Of a DNA stretch of 36,687 nucleotides, positions 10,918 through 36,687 are shown piece after piece (positions within the stretch are counted from its first letter, which is position 1; each line of letters opens with the position of its first letter). The notes under the pieces are model-generated. The model made no database searches and was not told the origin of the DNA. It saw only the letters and a list, made by a program, of their open reading frames with translations. The translations under genes and the position numbers were made by a program. This stretch comes from Deltaproteobacteria bacterium (GTDB lineage: Bacteria; Myxococcota_A; UBA9160): NCBI GenBank assembly GCA_020849175.1, contig JADLGR010000198.1, positions 1-36,687 on the forward strand. The letters run 5' to 3'.

Positions 10918-13779
<2,862 letters not shown>

Positions 13780-36019: not shown

Positions 36020-36095
36020 GGGACGTTAGCTCAGCTGGGAGAGCGCCGTGTTCACACCGCGGAGGTCGCAGGTTCGATCCCTGCACGTCCCACCA
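36020..36095 (+). tRNA. tRNA-Val (anticodon CAC)
   Basis: A complete 76-base cloverleaf: acceptor GGGACGT with ACGTCCC, D stem GCTC/GAGC, anticodon stem CCGTG/CGCGG (one T-G pair) around loop TTCACAC with CAC at 34-36, T stem GCAGG/CCTGC with loop TTCGATC, discriminator A and an encoded CCA. It reads GUG, the main valine codon class in such a GC-rich genome. Confidence 0.96.
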
Positions 36096-36123
36096 TCCGC
36101 TCCGCTTGGTCGCTCACCGTTCT

Positions 36124-36201
36124 GGCCCGGTAGCTCAGCCTGGATAGAGCACCAGCCTCCGAAGCTGGGGGTCGCGCGTTCGAATCGCGCCCGGGTCACC
36201 A
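36124..36201 (+). tRNA. tRNA-Arg (anticodon CCG)
   Basis: A complete 78-base cloverleaf: acceptor GGCCCGG with CCGGGTC (one G-T pair), D stem GCTC/GAGC, anticodon stem CCAGC/GCTGG around loop CTCCGAA with CCG at 34-36, T stem GCGCG/CGCGC with loop TTCGAAT, discriminator A and encoded CCA. It reads CGG. It lies 28 bases after the tRNA-Val, so the two are probably cotranscribed. Confidence 0.96.
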
Positions 36202-36259: not shown

Positions 36260-36343
36260 GCTCGTAACCTTTCGTTGTGTAGCTGCGGGGACTTTGGTGG
36301 GACTTCGCAAGCCGTGCGCTCCCGGTCTCCGGCTCGCGGAATG

Positions 36344-36366
36344 CGTTTTCTTCGAACGAGAAAACG
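36344..36366. promoter_or_regulatory. Perfect 8-bp inverted repeat, candidate activator site for the sigma-54 promoter
   Basis: CGTTTTCT (36344-36351) and its exact complement AGAAAACG (36359-36366) flank a 7-base spacer. Its AT-rich arms stand out in this GC-rich DNA. The centre lies about 118 bases upstream of the predicted start of the sigma-54 promoter, where enhancer-binding activators usually bind. A further TTTTCT half-site occurs at 36432-36437. Binding by an activator is inference. Confidence 0.5.
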
Positions 36367-36445
36367 ATTTCTTCTGCAGTCTTGCCGAGCTGCCCGGAGA
36401 ACTCCTAAGTCACTGATTCAAAAGGAGATTATTTTCTGGGTCGCA

Positions 36446-36462
36446 TTGGCGCGTGTCTTGCA
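36446..36462 (+). promoter_or_regulatory. Sigma-54 (-24/-12) promoter
   Basis: TTGGCGCGTGTCTTGCA matches the sigma-54 consensus YTGGCACG-N4-TTGCW at all but one position: GG at 36448-36449 and GC at 36460-36461 with the obligatory 10-base spacing between them. Predicted transcription start is near 36473, giving a leader of about 31 bases with a strong Shine-Dalgarno before the GTG at 36504. Such promoters need an ATP-driven activator. Confidence 0.8.
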
Positions 36463-36503
36463 CTGCGGGGCTGCGATCCATTCATCTTGGGGAGGATTGC
36501 GTC

Positions 36504-36687
36504 GTGAAGATCAAGAACTTGGGAATTGCTGCGGGTCTGGCTGCGGCCTTGGTTGCCGCTCACGGTGCGAGCGCGACGACGTTCACGTTCACCGGGCTCG
36601 GCAGCGTGCCGGCCAGCGGGTACTCGACGACGGTCGATGGGATCACGGTCACGGTGACCGCGCCCGGAGAGGACCTCGGCTACCTGA
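36504..36687 (+). CDS. Secreted protein, possibly PEP-CTERM-type (partial, C-terminus off right edge)
   Basis: The first 61 residues are visible from a GTG at 36504, with GGGGAGG eight bases upstream. Residues 1-25 are a standard signal peptide (MKIKN, then an Ala/Leu/Gly core, cleavage after ASA). The mature start is Thr/Gly/Val/Ser-rich with alternating strands (TTFTFTGLGSVPASG, then GITVTVTAPGED), typical of extracellular-matrix or exosortase-sorted proteins. The deciding C-terminal VPEP-type signal is outside the window. Low-abundance residues such as Cys are absent in the visible part. It is driven by the sigma-54 promoter upstream. Signal peptide and gene are well supported; the PEP-CTERM assignment is inference. 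Confidence 0.75.
   Translation, partial: MKIKNLGIAAGLAAALVAAHGASATTFTFTGLGSVPASGYSTTVDGITVTVTAPGEDLGYL

Follow-up and report, generated by a model that had tools for sequence, protein, structure and literature searches.

A tandem-dyad sigma-54 control region at a contig end, probably part of an order-specific regulon for PEP-CTERM cell-surface proteins

The right end of the window (the whole stretch of 36,687 nucleotides analysed here) is, with a probability of about 77%, the control region of a gene in an order-specific sigma-54 regulon for cell-surface (PEP-CTERM) proteins. The module found there is recurrent, restricted to one lineage, helically phased in its spacing and linked to PEP-CTERM genes. 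Sigma-54 control of PEP-CTERM genes had previously been described only together with PrsK/PrsR and with one type of box. What is new here is a different enhancer and a named candidate activator, which mark a PEP-CTERM sigma-54 regulon in a poorly known, uncultivated order. Its consensus, spacing rules and target lists are now available and give a handle on the timing of matrix building.

The window is contig C198 of a draft genome of 3.95 Mb in 371 contigs, 94.8% complete. On its forward strand, a sigma-54 -24/-12 promoter, TGGCGCGTGTCTTGCA, occupies positions 36447–36462. It matches TGGCRCG-N4-TTGCW perfectly and is the sole match in the window at 0–1 mismatch; the GG-N10-GC core and the TGGCAC/TTGC consensus are both present, and upstream activator sites stand at a suitable, helically phased distance. 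A correctly spaced -24/-12 promoter had been proposed in an earlier reading by a model that saw the sequence alone (here referred to as the sequence-only reading), and the perfect match bears this out. Taken alone, such a match is within chance in a GC-rich genome, as 9 exact matches occur in the whole genome and the reversed pattern has 7. The tandem pair of upstream dyads is missing from all 8 of the other exact sites.

These two dyads, the only ones of the form RGAA-N6-TTCY in the window, lie on the forward strand at 36338–36351 (dyad 1, GGAATGCGTTTTCT) and 36359–36372 (dyad 2, AGAAAACGATTTCT), 21 bp or two helical turns apart. The sequence-only reading had instead named a palindrome, CGTTTTCT-N7-AGAAAACG, as the activator site. 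It is exact at 36344–36366 on the forward strand, but the distance given, 118 bases upstream of the start, needs correcting: the palindrome precedes the start codon by 138–160 bases and the -24 element by about 81 bp. In fact, dyad 1 contributes its right half and dyad 2 its left half. Because the palindrome is merely the junction of two dyads, it has no further copies near -24/-12 promoters in the 3.95 Mb genome, where it is unique at up to 2 mismatches, and the part that is conserved is a different one. The window has about 1.5 perfect 8-bp inverted repeats per kb, the palindrome being the only AT-rich one, and an order-wide search with the single palindrome gave one extra match, in genome G051, with the same layout. 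The upstream box common to the strong -24/-12 sites of this genome's PEP-CTERM genes is the dyad RGAA-N6-TTCY, usually present twice and 21–22 bp apart. As judged from these sequences, then, the regulatory unit is the pair of tandem dyads and not the 8-bp palindrome.

We searched 379 genomes, 80 from the window's order and 299 others (11 of the class and 288 of the phylum), with a pattern of two GAA-N6-TTC dyads 21–22 bp apart, followed after 58–88 nt by GGC-N7-TTGC. As a result, 63 sites were obtained in 37 of the 80 genomes of the order and a single one in the 299 others, while the reversed pattern had no match in any of the 379. As far as these genomes show, the module of tandem dyads and -24/-12 promoter is confined to a single order. 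Moreover, bases that the pattern left free are biased among the 63 sites: G precedes GAA in 79% (dyad 1) and 87% (dyad 2), C follows TTC in 79% and 69%, and the -24 element carries A in 76% and G in 63%. This bias outside the pattern indicates that the true box is GGAA-N6-TTCC. The gaps between dyad 2 and the -24 element fall into groups of 64–68, 71–78 and 84–88 nt, with a helical period that jittered gaps reached in 0 of 5000 trials, a figure to be read with caution owing to the 58–88 limit of the pattern and to the relatedness of the genomes. The gap in the window, 76 nt, is the commonest of the regulon.

The genes behind the module are dominated by one class. PF07589 matched 20 of the 51 downstream proteins scanned (the truncated window ORF is among the 51), and by inspection PEP-CTERM-like tails stand behind at least 28 of the 63 sites. 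About half of the 63 sites have no recognisable PEP-CTERM gene directly downstream; some of these genes are truncated, some are TetR, SDR or other genes, and some sites are seemingly spurious. In the window's genome, which holds about 47 PEP-CTERM matches above the Pfam cut-off and two exosortases, boxes with a -24/-12 site are found at four other PEP-CTERM genes (on contigs C125, C355, C133 and C45), and the module serves only about 5 of the 47–48 or so PEP-CTERM genes. Recurrence of the module ahead of PEP-CTERM genes across the order upholds both proposals made for the window's gene, control by sigma-54 and a link to PEP-CTERM, and an exosortase, which was to be looked for in the genome, is there in two copies.

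Other genes behind these promoters raise the question of a wider programme. SDRs and secreted dockerin-like or thrombospondin-repeat proteins are among them, and a conserved TetR-family gene follows the promoter at about nine sites in several genera (L216, L217, L219, L224, L232, L238, L241, L244 and L246), which suggests a regulatory layer inside the regulon. At L218, L242 and L243 the promoter is followed by small secreted thrombospondin-type-3-repeat proteins, with PEP-CTERM genes further downstream. These targets, together with the roughly 15 long NtrC-like regulators that the genome encodes, are what one would expect if a general NtrC-family activator (for example a PilR-like one or a TetR-linked circuit) were at work, PEP-CTERM genes being one output of a broader surface or envelope programme. 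We regard this as unlikely, though the most serious of the alternatives, since PEP-CTERM is the dominant class downstream and, among the NtrC-like genes examined, only the one at the XrtA locus has clustered boxes in its promoter.

That locus, on contig C358, is an XrtA-type exopolysaccharide locus, with exosortase A over its cut-off, WecB, a polysaccharide export protein, and an XrtA chain-length determinant and XrtA ATPase whose matches are under their cut-offs. Its export genes are headed by a response regulator that combines a receiver domain, a sigma-54 activation domain and a Fis-type HTH domain. Three boxes lie in the promoter of this regulator, two of them perfect (L269:11238 and 11277) and one with a single mismatch (11256, 21 bp ahead of the box at 11277), whereas the background density is 0.08 per kb; the promoter's -24/-12 candidate is only a weak one. 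Of four other NtrC-like loci checked, two lack the box and the remaining two have one copy each. In a different genus of the order, exosortase homologs and regulon sites are found together on L083, L218 and L243. The only activator candidate on the regulon loci examined is a weak response-regulator homolog beside the sole match outside the order (L206, at G230:C712:36796-36931). It has 29% identity to the XrtA-locus regulator, and this match may be due to chance. The evidence comes from a single locus of a single genome, and on it the XrtA-locus regulator, an NtrC-family response regulator, is the best candidate for the activator, with chances that we put at about even.

The regulon most similar to the present one is the classical one of Proteobacteria, in which sigma-54 control of PEP-CTERM genes is tied to PrsK/PrsR and the box is a 17-nt motif ending in TTTACA, sometimes repeated, 32–92 nt before the -24/-12 promoter (Haft et al. 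2006, PMC1569441). In Aquincola, the PEP-CTERM gene pepA has been reported to depend on RpoN (PMC9850573). The two regulons share an activator box upstream of -24/-12, single PEP-CTERM genes and a link to exosortase and exopolysaccharide, and the spacing of the window's module falls within the 32–92 nt of the earlier one. The sequence-only reading had suggested that the protein may be under PrsK/PrsR control. PrsR acting on the palindrome would account for this layout of activator box, spacer, promoter and single secreted gene, and the best matches to the PrsR model in the genome are long, at 401–433 bits. However, no protein of the genome is above the curated cut-off of either family: the best PrsR (TIGR02915) match has 433.5 bits against 502.6, and the best PrsK (TIGR02916) match 105 against 300. 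In addition, none of the nine promoters examined has TTTACA in the 200 nt that precede it, and the conserved box of the present module is GGAA-N6-TTCC. The present regulon also differs in including a TetR regulator, in covering only a minor part of the PEP-CTERM genes that the genome holds and in being confined, as far as tested, to one order. Control by the classical PrsK/PrsR/RpoN system is therefore improbable. The sequence-only reading had picked out a real unit and guessed its pathway correctly; the binding unit that it named is wrong, and the regulator probably so.

Similar comparisons can be made with two other systems. Sigma-54 enhancer-binding protein regulons of Desulfovibrio use inverted repeats around N6, such as yGTCA-N6-TGACr (PMC4641369); they share with ours the dyad geometry of the NtrC family (Fis-type HTH) upstream of -24/-12, and differ in half-site sequence and target genes. 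The C358 locus resembles the XrtA-type locus (TIGR03109, TIGR03007, TIGR03015) in its exosortase A, chain-length determinant and XrtA ATPase, whereas its NtrC-family regulator is not PrsR by the curated model. In the literature searched, GGAA-N6-TTCC is not described in a PEP-CTERM sigma-54 role, although such an absence is no proof of novelty.

The weakest alternative, a hairpin or terminator following the tRNA-Val/tRNA-Arg pair with a -24/-12 match by chance, could draw on the position of the palindrome about 140 nt past tRNA-Arg and on exact promoter matches that, alone, do not exceed the reversed control, but it is refuted, as no T-run follows the palindrome, the dyads and promoter recur ahead of unrelated genes and the reversed control has 0 matches.

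Under the preferred reading, an order-specific sigma-54 regulon for PEP-CTERM proteins, an NtrC-family enhancer-binding protein would occupy the tandem GGAA-N6-TTCC dyads as two dimers, both on the same face of the DNA, and the spacer would be bent by an IHF-type protein. The activator would then open RNA polymerase-sigma-54 at the -24/-12 promoter, and the transcript would yield a Sec-exported protein to be sorted by exosortase to the exopolysaccharide or surface layer. A more specific version is a lineage-specific replacement of PrsK/PrsR, in which the XrtA-locus regulator acts on the tandem dyads and co-activates exopolysaccharide and a subset of PEP-CTERM genes, with the YGGGAAGG element of the leaders (see below) adding post-transcriptional control; we put this forward tentatively, at rather less than even chances.

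The gene for the sigma factor itself, rpoN, is missing from the window's draft assembly. It is present in 74 of the 80 genomes of the order, including those of the same genus and family (in G001, of the same genus, at C176:8574-9986), which makes an assembly gap the probable reason for its absence here. Many NtrC-family activators are encoded in this genome even though the assembly lacks rpoN.

The gene controlled by the module in the window starts with GTG at 36504 on the forward strand and runs past the contig end at 36687, leaving 61 codons of the 5' part of a secreted protein, a probable PEP-CTERM/exosortase substrate. Both a ribosome-binding site and a secretory signal had been claimed for it, and both are found: ggggagg precedes the GTG, and MKIKNLGIAAGLAAALVAAHGASA, encoded at 36504–36575 (forward strand) and read from the sequence, is a typical Sec signal peptide, as a PEP-CTERM protein should have. 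The sorting tag is out of sight because the gene is cut off after 61 codons. Upstream, a tRNA-Val(CAC) and a tRNA-Arg(CCG) at 36020–36201 separate the regulated gene from the CTP synthase gene. Among named records, the CTP synthase is most similar to that of a Deltaproteobacteria/Myxococcota lineage (UBA6930, 72%), which points to the lineage but does not classify the genome. None of the other contigs of the assembly overlaps the right end of the window. In the same genome, another PEP-CTERM gene is split across the overlapping contigs C45 and C228 (L203, L035). As those broken contigs do overlap and the window's end does not, the rest of the gene probably lies outside the assembly. Protein searches with the 61-residue fragment gave no orthologs and mostly false matches to ABC transporters, with one credible partial homolog (L054), which ends in VPEP; genome collections scanned with the same fragment gave no match. 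The signal peptide and the position behind the tandem dyads and -24/-12 promoter suggest that the truncated ORF is a PEP-CTERM gene, and we consider it quite likely that the complete protein ends in PEP-CTERM.

Two further elements of the control region were also analyzed. First, an IHF-like element, TAAGTCACTGATT, lies in the spacer at 36406–36418 (forward strand), 42 nt before the GG of the -24 element and with one mismatch to YAANNNNTTGATW. At up to 2 mismatches this motif is present in 24 of the 63 spacers, clustered at -40 to -43, compared with about 7 expected from shuffles; the opposite strand of these spacers is likewise enriched (19 of 63), and part of the count is therefore due to AT-richness. 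Second, the leader element TGGGGAGG at 36488–36495 (forward strand), whose regulon consensus is YGGGAAGG, coincides in the window with the Shine-Dalgarno sequence. It occurs in 27 of the 63 leaders (L207–L268 and the window), compared with 0.6 expected from its density in their own DNA, mostly 12–26 nt past the -12 element and close to the 5' end of the transcript. No Rfam family matched the regulon leaders, in which a CCTT/AAGG hairpin is suggested. YGGGAAGG was also found upstream of five PEP-CTERM genes that have no sigma-54 box or promoter. It may be a post-transcriptional site, and its being common to PEP-CTERM genes with and without the promoter provides a lead on regulation after transcription.
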